A model generated the notes under the pieces. The model was not told the DNA's origin, searched no databases, and worked only from the letters and a program-made list of their open reading frames with translations. Of a stretch of 21,390 nt of DNA, positions 7,795 to 17,636 are shown piece after piece. Source of the stretch: a virus. How positions within the stretch are numbered: the stretch's first letter is position 1; the number at the start of each line of letters is the position of its first letter. The stretch is from positions 1 through 21,390 of the IMG/VR virus record IMGVR_UViG_3300027801_000192, one strand, 5' to 3'. Made by a program: the position numbers and the translations under genes.

Positions 7795-8067
7795 TTATAA
7801 ATTCTTGATAATCTTATTGAGGTTCTTTATTTTACTGTACTTTTTAAGCTTCTTTAGCTTAGGTTCGATCTGTTGTTGGATATTTGTTAGGCTAACGTAA
7901 CCATAGTAATCTAAAATCATTACCATAGCCATAACATCACCTAACTCCTGTTCGAGTTCTTTTATATTGTCTTCATCATACGGGCCAAACCTAATTAACT
8001 TAGAGTTGGCCTGTATAACTTCTGCGCATTCTTCTGATAGAATGGTCAGGGTTTCTTTTACATTCAT
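7795..8067 (-). CDS. MazG-like all-alpha NTP pyrophosphohydrolase, 90 aa
   Basis: Small all-alpha nucleotide pyrophosphohydrolase. The metal-binding pattern is present: SEECAE with Glu12, Glu13 and Glu16, then ELGD with Glu41 and Asp44 (ExxE...ExxD). These enzymes hydrolyse NTPs or dNTPs to monophosphate and pyrophosphate; the substrate cannot be told from the sequence. The 90-residue length fits single-domain MazG-like proteins. The lysine-rich tail (KLKKLKKYSKIKNLNK) is unusual. ATG 8067 overlaps the formate dehydrogenase stop as TAATG, so the two are co-translated. In T4 the dCTPase gp56 belongs to the same superfamily, so a dCTP-clearing role is a possibility for a phage making hydroxymethylcytosine. 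Confidence 0.8.
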   Translation of the reverse strand: MNVKETLTILSEECAEVIQANSKLIRFGPYDEDNIKELEQELGDVMAMVMILDYYGYVSLTNIQQQIEPKLKKLKKYSKIKNLNKIIKNL

Positions 8068-9326
8068 TACTTTTTAAATTCAGCTGCCTCAGATGATCCG
8101 TGCGTTGCTGTTCCTTTCGTATATGAATGAGCTCCCATACCAGCCAGCTCTCCGGCTTGTACAATAAGATACTCATCTCTGATAGGTTCTCCTGCAAAGA
8201 AACATTCTAATATTTCTCTCACTCCATCAGCATATCTTGTCTGTGCTGATAGTGAAGTACCTGATGTATGAGGAGTCATACCGTGATTAGGCATTGATCT
8301 CCATACGTGGTCATTCGGTGGTGGCTGTGGAAACCAAACGTCTCCAGCATATCCTGACAATTGACCAGACTCGCATGCACGAGCTATAGCATCTTTGTCA
8401 CATATCTTACCACGTGCCGTATTAATTATGTATGCACCCTTCTTACACTTCGCGATCAATTCATCATTGAACATATGCTCAGTCTCAGGGTGTAGTGGAC
8501 AACTAATGTTAATCACATCACAATGTGCAACCATAGATTCGACTGAATCATGATATGTTAAACCTAGTTCTGTTTCTATTTGATTACTCAAACGATGTTT
8601 GTCAAAGTAATGTAGATGTACATCAAATGGTTTCATCTTTCTTAGCATGTCTAAACCAATTCGACCTGCTGCAATAGTACCAATGTGCATACCTTCTACA
8701 TCATATGATCTAGATACAGCGTCAGCAATATGCCAACCTCCATCATTAACAATTGCATGTTGAGTAGTGAAGTCTCTTACTAAGACTAAGATCTGCATAA
8801 CAATATGTTCTGCCACTGATCGTGAGTTACAATACGTAACTTCTACAACGTCAATGTTGTGGTCCATCGCTGCTTCTAAATCAACATGGTCTGAGCCAAT
8901 GCCAGCAGTAATTGCCATCTTAAGATTAGGAGCTGATTCCATCAGCGCTCTTGTTACATAATATGGAAAGAATGGTTGAGAGATAACAATATCTGCATCA
9001 ATTAATTCTTTATCTGCCTCACAACCGAATCCATCTTTGTCAGATGTGACTACAAGTGTGTGACCTAAACCTTCTAAATACTTTCTTAAACCTAATTCAC
9101 CTGACACACAACCTAGTAATTCACCTGGGTTGAAGTCTCTGCCCTGAGGGCTGGGTAGGGTCATCCCATCTGGATAGTTATGTATTACTGGTAAATCTTC
9201 TAATGGATAGCTTGTAGGCATTCCATTTGTTGGATCATCATATAGTACACAAAGGATCTTTAATCCCGTTTTTGGTTCTTCCAACGACGGTTCTACACCC
9301 TCAAAAAAACTAGTGGCTGACATCAT
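8067..9326 (-). CDS. fdh: NAD-dependent formate dehydrogenase
   Basis: Oxidises formate to CO2 with reduction of NAD+. It is a full-length member of the D-2-hydroxyacid dehydrogenase superfamily, formate dehydrogenase clade, closely resembling the Pseudomonas sp. 101 enzyme over its length (KILCVLYDDP, GELGLRKYLE, TAGIGSDHVDL, AGDVWFPQP, IRDEYLIVQAG). Catalytic residues are kept: Asn167, Arg305, Gln334 and His353 (Pseudomonas N146, R284, Q313, H332). The nucleotide-binding loop AAGRIG (219-224) and Asp242 in HYFDKHR indicate NAD+ preference. About 20 extra residues precede the usual N-terminus (starting MMSATSFFEG). Start 9326 follows GGAGAAGAG and overlaps the previous gene by 17 bases. This is a metabolic gene probably taken from a bacterial host and apparently intact. 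Confidence 0.95.
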   Translation of the reverse strand: MMSATSFFEGVEPSLEEPKTGLKILCVLYDDPTNGMPTSYPLEDLPVIHNYPDGMTLPSPQGRDFNPGELLGCVSGELGLRKYLEGLGHTLVVTSDKDGFGCEADKELIDADIVISQPFFPYYVTRALMESAPNLKMAITAGIGSDHVDLEAAMDHNIDVVEVTYCNSRSVAEHIVMQILVLVRDFTTQHAIVNDGGWHIADAVSRSYDVEGMHIGTIAAGRIGLDMLRKMKPFDVHLHYFDKHRLSNQIETELGLTYHDSVESMVAHCDVINISCPLHPETEHMFNDELIAKCKKGAYIINTARGKICDKDAIARACESGQLSGYAGDVWFPQPPPNDHVWRSMPNHGMTPHTSGTSLSAQTRYADGVREILECFFAGEPIRDEYLIVQAGELAGMGAHSYTKGTATHGSSEAAEFKK

Positions 9327-10688: not shown

Positions 10689-11150
10689 TTATTTCTCCAC
10701 ATCTATTAAATACATCACCTCAGCTTCTTTAAATAAAGCTTTGGCATCCTTTATTGAATCATCCCAATCAGTATTATAATCTTTCGGTCTAACAGCAACA
10801 ACTTTCTTTATGCCAACCTGTATAATACCCTTTGCACATTCATTACAAACAGGCAAACCATATACATACAACGTTGATCCATCTAAAGAAATACCATTAA
10901 GACCAGCATTATATATAGCATTCATCTCGGCATGTACAACTAATTTATACTTTTTTTGTTTATCTTTTAATCTGGCGGCATTATCATTAATACCTCTTGG
11001 GAATCCATTGAATCCTTGTGAGAGTAATTGACCATGATCTCCAATAACCACAGCACCAACTTTAGTGCTTGGATCTTTAGACCAAGTAGATACTTCTTTG
11101 GCTAAGTGGAGATATCTATCTCCCCACATCTTGCCATGTATCTTACTCAC
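10689..11150 (-). CDS. cd: dCMP deaminase
   Basis: Zinc-dependent deaminase converting dCMP to dUMP, feeding dTMP synthesis. Active-site HAEMN (His73, Glu75) and PVCNEC (Cys102, Cys105) are the zinc ligands and proton-shuttle glutamate of the cytidine/deoxycytidylate deaminase family. Length 153 is near the compact bacterial and phage form and shorter than T4 Cd. The frame begins with GTG at 11150, overlapping the upstream TGA as GTGA; an in-frame ATG at codon 8 is the alternative. In a phage that also carries dCMP hydroxymethylase, the two enzymes would compete for dCMP and set the T to modified-C ratio, as in T4. Confidence 0.95.
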   Translation of the reverse strand: MSKIHGKMWGDRYLHLAKEVSTWSKDPSTKVGAVVIGDHGQLLSQGFNGFPRGINDNAARLKDKQKKYKLVVHAEMNAIYNAGLNGISLDGSTLYVYGLPVCNECAKGIIQVGIKKVVAVRPKDYNTDWDDSIKDAKALFKEAEVMYLIDVEK

Positions 11151-13727: not shown

Positions 13728-13757
13728 ATTATATCACAGTTAGATGGGAAGTACATA
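13728..13757 (-). promoter_or_regulatory. Early-type promoter for the uvsX-gp41 operon
   Basis: Minus strand TATGTAC (13757-13751), 17 bp, TATAAT (13733-13728) with extended -10 TGA. The -35 part lies inside the last codons of the upstream gene, so the modification operon and the uvsX operon abut without a free gap. Confidence 0.75.
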
Positions 13758-14672
13758 CCCTTCACCAAATTCTTTTCTTCTGTAACACTGTGGAGATATA
13801 TGTACTGATGACATGTTCTCCATTTTCTCTTTAGCATATAATTCAGGATCCATACACTTCCATTCTTCTGGCCACATAATCTTATTCATGCTTACCATAT
13901 CCATGGTCTCTTCAATCCTTTCTAGCATCATTACTCTTTCATATCGTGTTCCATAAAAAGGTTGTCCTTTATAATAACCTGTCTTAGGTAATTTTCTACC
14001 TTCAAATTCTATTGGCCATGGCATTGCATACTCAACTGGTATAGGAAGACTATCACCGAATCTTTTTAGATCTATCCACATATCTCTTGGATCTATATTC
14101 AATCTACATAGATGATGTCTTACATCTATATTGCCAAAGACTAATGTGATACCTTGTAGGTTATTACATTTAGCCATATGATCTGTTACGTATTTAAAAT
14201 TAGATTTGATTTGTCCATTCAATGTAATACCATCAGTCTTAATAACCATACTACCTTCAGGAGCAAATGCTGCTGTATGAGAATCACCTATAGTTAACCA
14301 ATCCGTATCAAGATCAGTGGATAGTAATGTTTGTGCATTGTTGCATTTGTCTTGCACACGGGCACACCAGTCTTTATCCTCCACATCTTTTCTCTTGGCT
14401 AACATGTTACCATACGCAGGCATCGGAATGTCTAATGAATAAACTTTATCAGCTAGTAAAAAGTTATCAATGTGTTCTTTAAGTTTATCATTGAATCCAC
14501 CGAATAGATTAATAGATCCATGGAAGTTTACTCCATGATCTAAGTATAATATTTCAACTCTTTGGTTGTCATGATTAATACTTACATTTAAATTTTCTGC
14601 CCACGTACGTGCCCAACCATATCCATGGCTATTCTTCTTACGTGGTATTTTACTAAACGTTCCTGTTATCAT
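13740..14672 (-). CDS. GDSH/SGNH-hydrolase-like protein, 310 aa
   Basis: Unnamed phage protein with hallmarks of the SGNH/GDSL hydrolase fold: IGDSHT at 128-133 (candidate nucleophile Ser131), FGNIDVRHHL at 179-188 (oxyanion-hole Gly180 and Asn181 region) and SSVHIS at 288-293 (candidate His291). The acidic residue usually three before the His is not evident, so activity is uncertain. Such folds include esterases, acyl hydrolases and transferases. It is the last gene of a five-gene overlapping operon containing dCMP hydroxymethylase and begins in an ATGA overlap with the PLP-like gene, so it may act on a small group attached to DNA or its precursor. That role is inference. Confidence 0.75.
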   Translation of the reverse strand: MITGTFSKIPRKKNSHGYGWARTWAENLNVSINHDNQRVEILYLDHGVNFHGSINLFGGFNDKLKEHIDNFLLADKVYSLDIPMPAYGNMLAKRKDVEDKDWCARVQDKCNNAQTLLSTDLDTDWLTIGDSHTAAFAPEGSMVIKTDGITLNGQIKSNFKYVTDHMAKCNNLQGITLVFGNIDVRHHLCRLNIDPRDMWIDLKRFGDSLPIPVEYAMPWPIEFEGRKLPKTGYYKGQPFYGTRYERVMMLERIEETMDMVSMNKIMWPEEWKCMDPELYAKEKMENMSSVHISPQCYRRKEFGEGYVLPI

Positions 14673-15544
14673 AAGTTCTTATCCCAATCTCTGTAGCTCT
14701 CTGTTTCATATAATGTTTCATCTCTTAATACTGGTTCTTTACCTACATTCCAAAATAGTATATCTTTACCAGAATACTTAGGAATGAATTTCCATACCTT
14801 ACCATCGTAAGTAGCTATGTTAGGAAATGGTGGTAAGTTCTCTGGCTTCTCTGATGCAGTGAATGCACGTGCTTCAGATATAACCTTTGCTCTACCTAAT
14901 TCACCAGCTTTCATATTCCTACTCACTGCTACAGATACAAACTCAGCATTCGGCCAAGCTATCTGTAATGAACGTGTCAATACACCGGTTGATGTAGCAA
15001 CATAGACTACATCAGGTTCTTTAATCTTACTGGCAACCTTTACCATTCCAGCCGTAACCATTTTATGTTTAAGTCCTAATGGTACAAAGAATGCATTAGG
15101 GGTTCTATCAGCCCACTTCTTTGCAATTGCATTTAGGTTTGGCATGGCTGCAATTCTATGGAAGAACACATGTGCTCCTCTCTCTATACAACATGCTTGG
15201 TGAGTTGATATTCTTTTAGATGAAGGCATAAATAAACGTACACTCTTATTGTGTCTATTAGCAACATCTAAAATTGAAACGCCAGCTAACCCAGTCCTTG
15301 GTTGAACATATACAATAATCTTTTCTTTAATACTTGATATTAAACAATCACCGCCACGAACCTTTGATCCAACTAAGTCATCATCACGTACAACTCTTAT
15401 ACTTTCATGCATAACAATACGTGGAGGAGGATTAGGATCTTCCCAATCACCAGCAAGATCTAAGTAATAGTTCTTTGCTTCATCTGGCTGCATCATTCCA
15501 ACATCAATGTTGAATCCGTCTTCTACGTGTTTGTTATGTGGCAT
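14669..15544 (-). CDS. PLP-dependent enzyme-like protein, fold type II (ACC deaminase/tryptophan synthase beta group)
   Basis: Sequence layout resembles the fold-type-II pyridoxal-phosphate enzymes: VGSKVRGGDCL (58-68) matches the G(N/S)KxR lysine motif, with Lys61 the candidate Schiff-base residue; VYVQPRTGLAGVSILDVA (78-95) matches the following phosphate/substrate loop; PSSKRIS and ERGAHVFF continue the small domain; VVYVATSTGVLTRSL (179-193) is the glycine-loop strand. At 291 residues it is shorter than ACC deaminase (about 340). It would act on an amino acid or amino group. In known thymine-hypermodifying phages a PLP enzyme trims an amino-acid adduct on DNA; the operon here suggests a similar job. 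Start overlaps the previous stop as TAATG. Confidence 0.72.
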   Translation of the reverse strand: MPHNKHVEDGFNIDVGMMQPDEAKNYYLDLAGDWEDPNPPPRIVMHESIRVVRDDDLVGSKVRGGDCLISSIKEKIIVYVQPRTGLAGVSILDVANRHNKSVRLFMPSSKRISTHQACCIERGAHVFFHRIAAMPNLNAIAKKWADRTPNAFFVPLGLKHKMVTAGMVKVASKIKEPDVVYVATSTGVLTRSLQIAWPNAEFVSVAVSRNMKAGELGRAKVISEARAFTASEKPENLPPFPNIATYDGKVWKFIPKYSGKDILFWNVGKEPVLRDETLYETESYRDWDKNL

Positions 15545-16578
15545 TATATTGGTAGTGTATTAGTATCCGGTGGCGTACCTTGTCTTTGCTTCCAACCAGA
15601 TACCCATCCGCTGTTATTAGTTATAGTACTTGAAATGTGGTCAAATGTGCCGTTACCTCTTGGTACATAGTTCTGACCAAACCTTACAAAGTCACACATC
15701 ACATCTTCAAGATCTTTTGGTCTACCGCCTGTGCGTTCTCTTAATATATTCATGAACTCATCATCCTTATATCCTGTAGATAACTTCTTCATACAACGAA
15801 CAGCGTTGTTACCTAAATAGGTATGTGAATCTTGATCTACTGCTGTAGGATAATAGTCTGACATATCCATAGAGAATGCTGCATATTGAAAGTTAAACTT
15901 CCTATGACCTGCAGCTTTATTATGTTCATTCAAAAAGTCTACAATCTGTTTATGAGTTTTCATTTCTTTACCGTCAATCTTTTCATACAATAACCAATCG
16001 GTAAATTGAAACATTAGCTTAGGCAATTCTTGTGTCATAAAGTCTACGTTACTAAAACCTTTTTTAGGTGCTGGTGGTTGGTTACCAATAGAAGTAAAGA
16101 TCGGTCCTCGCTCTTTACTCTTTATCATATCTTCGCACATTTCCTTTATACCATTCTTAGCAAATTGTGTGCCCCAATATTGTATAATGTTATTACGATA
16201 TCCATGGTCATTTTCAAATGATGCACCAGAACCTGTAATACGATGACACATCATAACAAAAAACCATGTTGATAAACCCCATGTGATTTCATCATTCCAT
16301 GTGTTAATCTCTCTACGTCTTTCATTCTGCCATCTCCATTTAGGAGTCTTAGAACCAAAGTGTAAGTCTTGTAATACATTAGAAAAGCCAGCGGCATTCC
16401 TTGTCTTACAGTCATATATGTCTATCTTCTGTAATAAAGGATCATCTATAATAGAGTTAGCTTCGGGTCCTTCGTAATCTAATGGTCCCCAATTAACATT
16501 ATCCTGCAGCCATCCAGCTTTAGGATAATAATAATTAACTAGCACATCAAGTGCTTCTTCGTTAAGCCATTTATTCAT
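15544..16578 (-). CDS. Putative base-hypermodification protein, aGPT-pyrophosphorylase/HMUDK-helical-domain-like
   Basis: I read this 344-residue helical protein as a divergent relative of the family described from phages with hypermodified thymine (alpha-glutamyl/putrescinyl-thymine pyrophosphorylases and the helical domain of 5-hmdU DNA kinase). Supporting marks: TWFFVMMCHRI (104-114), GHRKFNFQYAAFSMDMSDY (224-242, resembling G.G.F.ayQ...DL.Y), YLGNNAVRCMKKLSTG (254-269, resembling the PG.GA..G segment) and LEDVMCDFVRFGQ (290-302, resembling the LCEfdKy motif). No P-loop is present, so it is not the kinase itself. Family members link an amine or amino acid to an activated hydroxymethyl base. 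It overlaps dCMP hydroxymethylase as ATGA. A profile comparison would settle the call. Confidence 0.6.
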   Translation of the reverse strand: MNKWLNEEALDVLVNYYYPKAGWLQDNVNWGPLDYEGPEANSIIDDPLLQKIDIYDCKTRNAAGFSNVLQDLHFGSKTPKWRWQNERRREINTWNDEITWGLSTWFFVMMCHRITGSGASFENDHGYRNNIIQYWGTQFAKNGIKEMCEDMIKSKERGPIFTSIGNQPPAPKKGFSNVDFMTQELPKLMFQFTDWLLYEKIDGKEMKTHKQIVDFLNEHNKAAGHRKFNFQYAAFSMDMSDYYPTAVDQDSHTYLGNNAVRCMKKLSTGYKDDEFMNILRERTGGRPKDLEDVMCDFVRFGQNYVPRGNGTFDHISSTITNNSGWVSGWKQRQGTPPDTNTLPI

Positions 16579-17261
16579 CTATTATGGATAGGTTGTATTA
16601 AGTCAAAGTGTTTTTCATAGACATGTAAGTTCTGTACTTGCCATATCATTTTACCTGCTTCTATATGAAGATCATATGCTAATTCTTCTAACACGTGTTG
16701 TTGCCATGCATAATCATTCTTATAACCATAGACAACATCATTAGATCTCATTTGCACACAACAGTTTAATCTGCCATTACGTATATAATAAGCTACTGAG
16801 TTTGTGCATATAAAGTCAGACATACCTAAGTAGTCGTACTCAGCCCATATGTCTGGACGAGTATAGATCATTGTGGCTCTACGACCATCTGGTGCTGACT
16901 TTAATTCTTCTAACACATTATCATATTGATAACCATTCTCTTTAGAATATATTAAGTAACCATAGTTTGAATTGATAAAGCCTTCAGGAGATGCAGCATA
17001 CTTCCATGCTTCAGGAGCACTACGCTCAGTACCGTATATGTCATTTATATTTAATGACTGAGACTGATACCATTTGATTTCTCGTTTAATATACTCTAGG
17101 TTAGGTTCACCGAATATGGCTGGTTCATTTGCATGAAAGCTTGCACCGATAAGTTCAATACATTTAACACCGGTTTTATCGGTAGTCATATTGAATTTAT
17201 GATTCTTAGATGATACGAAGTAATCTCTTACATCTTGTACTACATGTGGTTTAATCAGCAT
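16575..17261 (-). CDS. 42: Deoxycytidylate 5-hydroxymethylase, T4 gp42 type
   Basis: Uses methylene-tetrahydrofolate and water to convert dCMP to 5-hydroxymethyl-dCMP. It follows T4 gp42 closely: TTDKTGVKCIELIGASF, REIKWYQSQSLNINDI, INSNYGYLIYS, ATMIYTRP, GMSDFICTNSVAYYIRNG, MRSNDVVYGYKNDYAW and NLHVYEKHF. Catalytic Cys152, Glu61, Arg172 and His213/Tyr215 are present. Asp183 stands where thymidylate synthases have the dUMP-selecting Asn, as in gp42 (Asp179), which points to cytosine and not uracil. Length 228 versus 246 in T4. It overlaps the Nmad1-like gene by 11 bases and the next gene as ATGA. It indicates that this phage makes hydroxymethylcytosine DNA or a derivative. Confidence 0.93.
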   Translation of the reverse strand: MLIKPHVVQDVRDYFVSSKNHKFNMTTDKTGVKCIELIGASFHANEPAIFGEPNLEYIKREIKWYQSQSLNINDIYGTERSAPEAWKYAASPEGFINSNYGYLIYSKENGYQYDNVLEELKSAPDGRRATMIYTRPDIWAEYDYLGMSDFICTNSVAYYIRNGRLNCCVQMRSNDVVYGYKNDYAWQQHVLEELAYDLHIEAGKMIWQVQNLHVYEKHFDLIQPIHNR

Positions 17262-17577
17262 TTTTAGGATTGTTTAAGTAATCAAGGGTAGGATCCTGGC
17301 CTTCCATCTCGCCACGAATATAAGCAACAGCAAAAGATGCATAGTTAATAAGATCTTTGTACGTGTCTTCTAGTGATTCGAAGTTATTGGCTTGGCCGGA
17401 TTCAAGTAAAGATTGAGCACGAAGCATTTTGCCGTGCATAGTATCATGGATAGAGTCTACGCCACGACGATAATGCATTGCTTGTTTTACTTGTGAATTT
17501 GGATTTTGATAGTCTTCTGACTTTTTAGATTGAAGCTCTGCACATTCTTGCAGAACTAATATAGATGTTTTTTGCAT
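17251..17577 (-). CDS. Nucleotide-modification-associated protein, Nmad1/DUF1599-like
   Basis: Small helical protein matching, by eye, the DUF1599/Nmad1 pattern: LxxKxxDY as LQSKKSEDY (15-23), a central DSIHDTMHGKMLRAQSLL (41-58) and ESLEDTYKDLINYASFAVAY (67-86). The family is named for its frequent linkage to phage base-modification genes; its biochemical role is unknown. It is the first gene of the operon, with an AAAGGA ribosome site and the promoter at 17606-17636, and it overlaps the dCMP hydroxymethylase gene, which fits a role in nucleotide handling before modification. No signal or membrane segment. Confidence 0.8.
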   Translation of the reverse strand: MQKTSILVLQECAELQSKKSEDYQNPNSQVKQAMHYRRGVDSIHDTMHGKMLRAQSLLESGQANNFESLEDTYKDLINYASFAVAYIRGEMEGQDPTLDYLNNPKNAD

Positions 17578-17605
17578 GTGATTCCTTTATTAAATATATA
17601 GGTAT

Positions 17606-17636
17606 ATTATAACATAGTTTATAGTGAAAGTACATA
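17606..17636 (-). promoter_or_regulatory. Early-type promoter for the base-modification operon
   Basis: Minus strand TATGTAC (17636-17630), 18 bp, TATAAT (17611-17606) with extended -10 TGT. The upstream half lies in the last codons of the nuclease-like gene. The first base after the -35 block continues TTTCAC, as in the nrdA promoter. Confidence 0.75.

Follow-up and report, generated by a model that had tools for sequence, protein, structure and literature searches.

A conserved phage gene cassette that may attach amino-acid-derived groups to hydroxymethylcytosine in DNA

What do five overlapping genes in an uncultured phage do together? The genes lie in virus record IMGVR_UViG_3300027801_000192, a fragment of a genome; the whole record, 21,390 bases long, is referred to here as the window. 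Five minus-strand open reading frames (ORFs) occupy positions 17577-13740, and each overlaps its neighbor by 1-11 nt, which confirms the gene arrangement described in an earlier, sequence-only reading of this DNA. That reading had proposed a new pathway of cytosine hypermodification. Our analysis leads us to conclude that the five genes are part of a conserved cassette whose members travel together. The best explanation of their function, to which sequence comparison and structure models lead us to give about an even chance, is that the cassette makes 5-hydroxymethylcytosine (hmC), attaches an amino-acid or amine group to it, and trims that group.

The evidence for a unit comes from other viruses. 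Scans of IMG/VR returned from 132 to more than 560 relatives per gene. We collected 52 distinct viral loci that encode a relative of the third protein, a putative transferase of 344 residues (hereafter T), with 5 kb or more of sequence on either side, and counted as a partner any same-strand gene no more than 5 kb away. The fifth gene, for an SGNH-type enzyme, was a partner at all 52 loci, the fourth, for an enzyme of the pyridoxal phosphate (PLP) type, at 50, and the second, for a hydroxymethylase, at 46, in 15 different gene orders. Where the transferase was of the window's own subtype, all three were present without exception (29/29). Gene content that stays constant while the order changes marks a functional unit. 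The linkage is tight across many viruses; the sequence-only reading had named conservation across related genomes as a check. The Nmad1 gene was within 5 kb of the transferase gene at 27 of the 52 loci, and a dCMP deaminase gene, which often lies inside the cassettes of relatives, at 39. Measured against four relatives, the ratio of nonsynonymous to synonymous change (dN/dS) was 0.11-0.25 in the four larger cassette genes, which are therefore real and constrained.

The cassette also varies. A second transferase subtype, of 382-400 residues and about 30% identical, is widespread, and many cassettes contain a further gene of 318 residues, X318 (for example L022:9038-9991), which is absent from the window. 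Profile comparison by hhalign (E 2e-5, probability 77%; unrelated controls 0.05 to 0.6) indicates that X318 is a distant paralogue of T. Neither transferase family, T-type or X318, gave a tblastn match in 50,697 phage records. Phage C48C1, which has the best match to the window's uvsX (70% identity), keeps the order polymerase, primase, uvsX, helicase and lacks the cassette; there, a UDP-glucose dehydrogenase and epimerase pair flanks uvsX. This arrangement implies that the cassette is optional and that the sugar pair is independent of it, and we have set the pair aside as a part of the pathway. We also rejected a bacterial origin: only two loci came from the genome_contigs set, both in one Rhodobacteraceae bin, and these are probably co-binned virus rather than host DNA. 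Could the five genes nevertheless be no unit at all, just unrelated accessory genes that chance to sit beside uvsX in related phages? T4-like phages do group many small accessory genes. Against this, the same genes stay together through 15 orders, the linkage is complete in the window's subtype, and in C48C1 the cassette is optional as a block; chance neighborhood is, in our judgment, extremely improbable.

The second gene points to cytosine as the base. A profile of the family of its 228-residue product matched the T4 dCMP hydroxymethylase 1b49 with an E value of 6.1e-95, compared with 4e-15 or weaker for ordinary thymidylate synthases. Cys152 aligns with the catalytic Cys of the T4 enzyme and Asp183 with its base-selecting Asp; both are invariant among 24 relatives, and the base-selecting site holds Asp, not Asn, in 108 of 114 distinct relatives. 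From these alignments, the protein is identified as an ortholog of T4 gp42, of the cytosine type, in agreement with the earlier assignment made from Asp183. Among the large cassette-bearing records, nine of the ten with a thymidylate synthase-type match encode the Asp-type enzyme. Two large contigs have a hydroxymethylase frame with one internal TGA (G009:58847-59476 and G011:159256-159795), through sequencing error, decay or recoding. The first gene is, as predicted, Nmad1/DUF1599-like.

The fourth gene suggests what happens to the base afterwards. Its 291-residue product matches phrog_7093, named "threonine dehydratase", over residues 22-269 (7.5e-35), as expected from its description as a fold-type-II PLP-like enzyme. 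BLASTP connected it to gp52 of Pseudomonas phage M6 (2e-5) and to a homologue in Microcystis phage Mae-JY30 (5e-24). K61, the presumed PLP-binding lysine, sits in the fold-II PLP motif, is invariant in 26 sequences, and aligns with the Lys of the Mae-JY30 homologue. M6 gp52 carries the same phrog_7093 name and sits immediately after gp51, which encodes the amino acid:DNA transferase of that phage; in EKU1, the gene that follows an amino acid:DNA transferase likewise matches phrog_7093. By sequence, then, the 291-residue protein belongs to the M6 gp52 family. In thymidine hypermodification, M6 gp51 is assigned to glycine transfer and gp52 to decarboxylation. The PLP protein is still 70-78% identical where the transferase has dropped to about 30%, a contrast which may mean that the transferases have changed their donor or DNA specificity. 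The same domain occurs elsewhere: in L083:6816-9236 and L086:6384-8699 (Erythrobacter phage R6L and Mae-JY30), a phrog_7093 PLP domain is fused or next to ParB-like and N6/N4-methylase pieces.

The transferase itself is where fold and sequence disagree. An AlphaFold model of T, built with 28 relatives, is all-helical (predicted template modeling score, pTM, 0.77; mean predicted local distance difference test, pLDDT, 73). The best viral structure match in BFVD (E 1.3e-12, TM 0.72) bears the name "amino acid:DNA transferase"; HMUDK-helical and aGPT proteins come further down, at weak scores. In the PDB, the model resembled the 8-oxoguanine glycosylase AGOG (Z 9.5) and the glycinyltransferase PUGT (8z2n, Z 9.1), both of the HhH-GPD type, and the two Z scores are tied within method error. 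By sequence, T matched no Pfam or NCBIfam family and gave insignificant PHROG matches only. The amino acid:DNA transferase model PF18724 did not match any of seven T-family members with hmmscan up to E 10, nor anything in the window's record, and the HMUDK helical model PF18723 had no matches over the cassette-bearing records. When 91 T sequences were compared with PF18724 and PF18723 by hhalign, the result was at control level; the same comparison failed to join amino acid:DNA transferases with HMUDK_hel, so its sensitivity is low. Weak PF18724 matches in three genomes were dropped, as they lay within or close to genes for replication and overlapped the clamp loader. The proposed membership of T in the aGPT/HMUDK helical family thus divides: a transferase-like helical fold is supported, whereas all sequence-profile searches were negative, leaving 15544-16578 without profile similarity to hypermodification families, an outcome that the sequence-only reading had listed among those that would refute it, while the fold comparison points the opposite way. 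On the strength of its model, T is a putative amino-acid (or other):hmC-DNA transferase.

The tie with AGOG opens another possibility, that T is an AGOG-like HhH-GPD enzyme of base excision or repair, that the PLP and SGNH enzymes serve metabolism or defense evasion, and that the DNA carries hmC only. The glycosylases do score as high as PUGT, but the viral structure matches are transferases rather than glycosylases, and the T gene keeps constant linkage with a dCMP hydroxymethylase and an M6-type PLP gene through 15 orders. We regard this as very unlikely.

How might the hydroxymethyl group be activated? Thymine pathways proceed from the hydroxymethyl base to a kinase and then to transferase steps (PMC6449724). 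The 5-hmdU DNA kinase model PF18748 found nothing in the window's record (M6, the positive control, gave 65.8 bits) and nothing in 12 large cassette-bearing records, nine records of 135-256 kb being among those searched; one genome, G006, had a single weak match below the cut-off. The earlier remark that no DNA kinase is visible in the window therefore stands, and it holds in the cassette-bearing records searched as well. Matches to phrog_800 in relatives were not accepted as kinases, being short P-loop stretches only, mostly in long ORFs. HMUDK_hel and radical SAM genes were likewise not found in the window; radical SAM genes occur in three of nine large relatives, are not tied to the cassette, and were discarded as part of it. 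The window does contain a Zeta-type P-loop gene, whose homologue adjoins the PLP gene in one relative (L075). Because HTVC008M and the Melnitz phages carry this gene too, with no transferase match, it is only a weak kinase candidate.

These observations bear on a kinase-dependent version of the pathway, in which the amino-acid chemistry would be that of the thymine pathways, the kinase would come from the host or be an unrecognised phage protein such as the Zeta-type enzyme, and the SGNH enzyme would have a tailoring role only. The precedent of the thymine pathways and the presence of a P-loop kinase-like gene, beside the PLP gene in that one relative, speak for it; the lack of PF18748 matches in cassette-bearing records and the occurrence of the P-loop gene in phages with no transferase match speak against it. 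On balance we find it somewhat doubtful. As it is a sub-case of the best explanation, our confidences in the two overlap.

The fifth gene might offer a different source of activation. An AlphaFold model of its 310-residue product (pTM 0.85) matched many SGNH chains at Z 9-10.6, with esterases up to 10.6, and the protein matched phrog_13881 at 8.7e-49. Within the family GDSH is invariant and a C-terminal His291 nearly so, but G-[NS]-I-D stands where SGNH enzymes usually have a G-x-N-D block, and there is no Asp three residues before the His. The model indicates an SGNH fold, consistent with the GDSH/SGNH-like label given to the gene before. Full-length relatives of the protein occur in the Aeromonas phages 44RR2.8t (ORF233c) and 25 (ORF225c), in which no transferase or phrog_7093-type PLP relative was found and PF18748 had no match. 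In 44RR, ORF233c (L082:7992-10376) fuses the SGNH homologue to a region that weakly resembles HMUDK_hel, at E 9e-4, below the Pfam cut-off. Nothing else hints that the SGNH enzyme may stand in the kinase's place, and the idea that it replaces the kinase of thymine systems is speculative. In phage 25, by contrast, the SGNH gene lies beside sugar-type genes: a UDP-galactopyranose mutase, a glycosyltransferase-looking 358-residue protein and the SGNH homologue stand in a row (L085:3767-7035), perhaps for a different base decoration. In a kinase-free route, the SGNH enzyme would activate the 5-hydroxymethyl group of hmC, for example by O-acylation, the HhH transferase would displace the activated group with an amino acid, and the PLP enzyme would trim the product. 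If this were true, which we think distinctly unlikely, the phage would reach an amino-acid-derived cytosine with no phosphorylated base along the way.

The row of genes in phage 25 also speaks for a rival reading, in which the group is of a different kind. Instead, hmC might carry a sugar, an acyl group, a peptide or something else, with T as some other transferase and the PLP and SGNH enzymes making or finishing that group. Known phage decorations of hmC are all sugars or carbamoyl (PMC8670742, PMC12838424), and T has no sequence link to PF18724, both of which fit this alternative. However, one would not expect a sugar pathway to conserve a PLP enzyme of M6 gp52 type, the best fold matches of T are amino acid:DNA transferases, and the UDP-sugar genes of relatives are also found beside uvsX where there is no cassette. 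A different group therefore seems to us rather unlikely.

How, then, does the proposal that an amino-acid-type group is placed on hmC fare as a whole? The gp42 ortholog, the M6 gp52-family PLP protein, the transferase-like fold of T, the SGNH enzyme and the linkage of their genes all favor it, as does the tandem paralogue X318; the part of the original proposal that made T a member of the aGPT/HMUDK families by sequence is not sustained. Other points weigh against it. No recognised DNA-base kinase was found in cassette-bearing records; the fold match of T ties with DNA glycosylases; the T family has no link to PF18724 or PF18723 by sequence profiles; one 183-kb cassette genome, G012, showed an Asn-type thymidylate synthase only; and other phages have members of the PLP family next to ParB/methylase proteins or fused with them.

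According to this explanation, the pathway would run in three steps. The first is strongly suggested by homology: the gp42 ortholog would make hydroxymethyl-dCMP, which would pass into DNA as in T4, with Nmad1 and the deaminase probably shaping the nucleotide pool. The second is suggested by fold and context. T, with its HhH-GPD fold, would bind the hmC base in DNA and let an amino acid or amine, as nucleophile, displace the activated 5-hydroxymethyl oxygen, much as PUGT works on phosphomethyl-uracil. In the third, to judge from its family, the M6 gp52-like PLP enzyme would trim the amino acid once attached, and decarboxylation would be the simplest way to do so. The SGNH enzyme may act in the same pathway, either in activation or in a finishing acyl transfer or hydrolysis. 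Phage DNA that carries the resulting cytosine would be protected against nucleases of the host.

The layout of the window adds some detail on expression and nucleotide supply (Table 1). A single promoter had been proposed for the five genes. Sigma-70-like sites are not enriched across the region (20, compared with a shuffle mean of 23.9), and there is none on the minus strand in the 41-nt gap ahead of the first gene, so the promoter was rejected as indistinguishable from shuffles. The upstream genes on the same strand are closely packed, and the transcription unit may therefore be larger. The MazG-like protein matched no NCBIfam family.

Table 1. Cassette genes and possible accessory genes in the window
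Feature	Position	Strand	Basis and remarks
Nmad1/DUF1599 protein, 108 aa	17251..17577	-	PF07659 3.3e-7; probably nucleotide-pool related
dCMP hydroxymethylase, T4 gp42 ortholog, 228 aa	16575..17261	-	Profile to 1b49; Cys152 and Asp183 conserved
T, 344 aa, all-helical, HhH-GPD-like fold; putative amino-acid (or other):hmC-DNA transferase	15544..16578	-	AlphaFold model
Fold-type-II PLP-type enzyme, 291 aa, M6 gp52 family	14669..15544	-	phrog_7093; presumed PLP lysine K61
SGNH-fold enzyme, 310 aa, GDSH motif	13740..14672	-	AlphaFold model, phrog_13881; candidate for acyl hydrolysis/transfer or hydroxyl activation
dCMP/dCTP deaminase-like protein, nucleotide supply	10689..11150	-	ComEB-type deaminase models, below their cut-offs
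MazG-like protein, 90 aa, possible dNTP pyrophosphatase	7795..8067	-	Sequence reading, not confirmed by profile; conserved in relatives
Zeta-toxin/AAA_33-type P-loop kinase, 227 aa	7070..7753	-	PF06414 4.8e-10, PF13671 5.1e-8; weak DNA-base kinase candidate

Outside the cassette, the window encodes an NAD-dependent formate dehydrogenase of 419 residues (8067-9326, minus strand; NF005750, E 2.3e-193). It has 83 relatives in IMG/VR viral contigs of up to 197 kb; in phage records, matches that cover more than 80% of its length come from just two entries, both labelled Staphylococcus phage, at 43% identity. In the relatives that were checked, we did not see the gene next to the cassette; it may serve energy metabolism in phages that infect methylotroph-like hosts. 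Relatives of the cassette have recurrent neighbors of their own. A protein of about 137 residues, encoded just upstream in many of them (L310:2589-2999 and 32 other distinct proteins), has a GICPST...HPSPRNR pattern and, on a reading of its sequence, the look of a uracil-DNA-glycosylase-type fold. At L035:2283-3062, L053:11794-12582 and L031:594-1352, relatives have a KdsA/DAHP-synthase-type protein near the cassette, together with a cytidylyltransferase that, on a reading of its sequence, looks like KdsB.

The cassette is common in uncultured water phages, with hundreds of matching viral contigs per scan, and has been missed by cultured collections. Its proteins, now named, can be assayed directly on T4 gt-minus DNA, which contains unglucosylated hmC; ORF233c of 44RR, a T4-like phage in culture, is a tractable model. 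The cassette could yield new hmC-tagging enzymes and new targets of type IV restriction.

Among known systems, the closest in content is that of phage M6, which makes 5-NedU with gp51 (amino acid:DNA transferase), gp52 (PLP), gp53 (radical SAM), gp54 (kinase), gp55 (HMUDK_hel) and gp58 (thymidylate synthase-like). The cassette resembles M6 in its thymidylate synthase-like hydroxymethylase, in the HhH-type fold of its transferase and in a PLP protein that falls in the same PHROG. It differs in having a cytosine-type rather than dUMP-selective hydroxymethylase and an SGNH enzyme, in the absence from the window of a kinase, HMUDK_hel and radical SAM, and in a transferase with no sequence-profile match to PF18724. 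The likeness of T to PUGT (gp46 of Pseudomonas phage PaMx11, the 5-PmdU glycinyltransferase) extends over 204 residues at the level of fold only: identity is 9%, the substrate of PUGT is phosphomethyl-uracil, and a kinase gene lies near the PUGT gene. T4 shares the gp42 ortholog and a dCMP deaminase-like gene, but no known hmC glucosyltransferase was recognised in the window, which has PLP, HhH and SGNH genes instead. The 5cmdC system also pairs a dCMP hydroxymethylase with an hmC-decorating enzyme, a 5-hydroxymethylcytosine carbamoyltransferase, and a dCMP deaminase (PMC8670742); no carbamoyltransferase family in Pfam, PHROG or NCBIfam matched a cassette gene. Finally, CmoA, CmoX and CmoY of Synechococcus phage S-B43 also place an amino acid on cytosine in phage DNA, as a glycine amide reached by carboxymethylation, but there the handle is made by a DNA methyltransferase and joined by an ATP-dependent ligase (PMC12783734), and neither family was matched in the cassette. 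In the literature searched, which lacked most subscription papers, we found no amino-acid pathway built on hmC. Amino-acid and amine decorations are known on thymine-derived bases, and glycine amide on cytosine through a carboxymethyl handle; the cassette suggests that a large group of uncultured phages follows a third logic and applies amino-acid chemistry to hmC.

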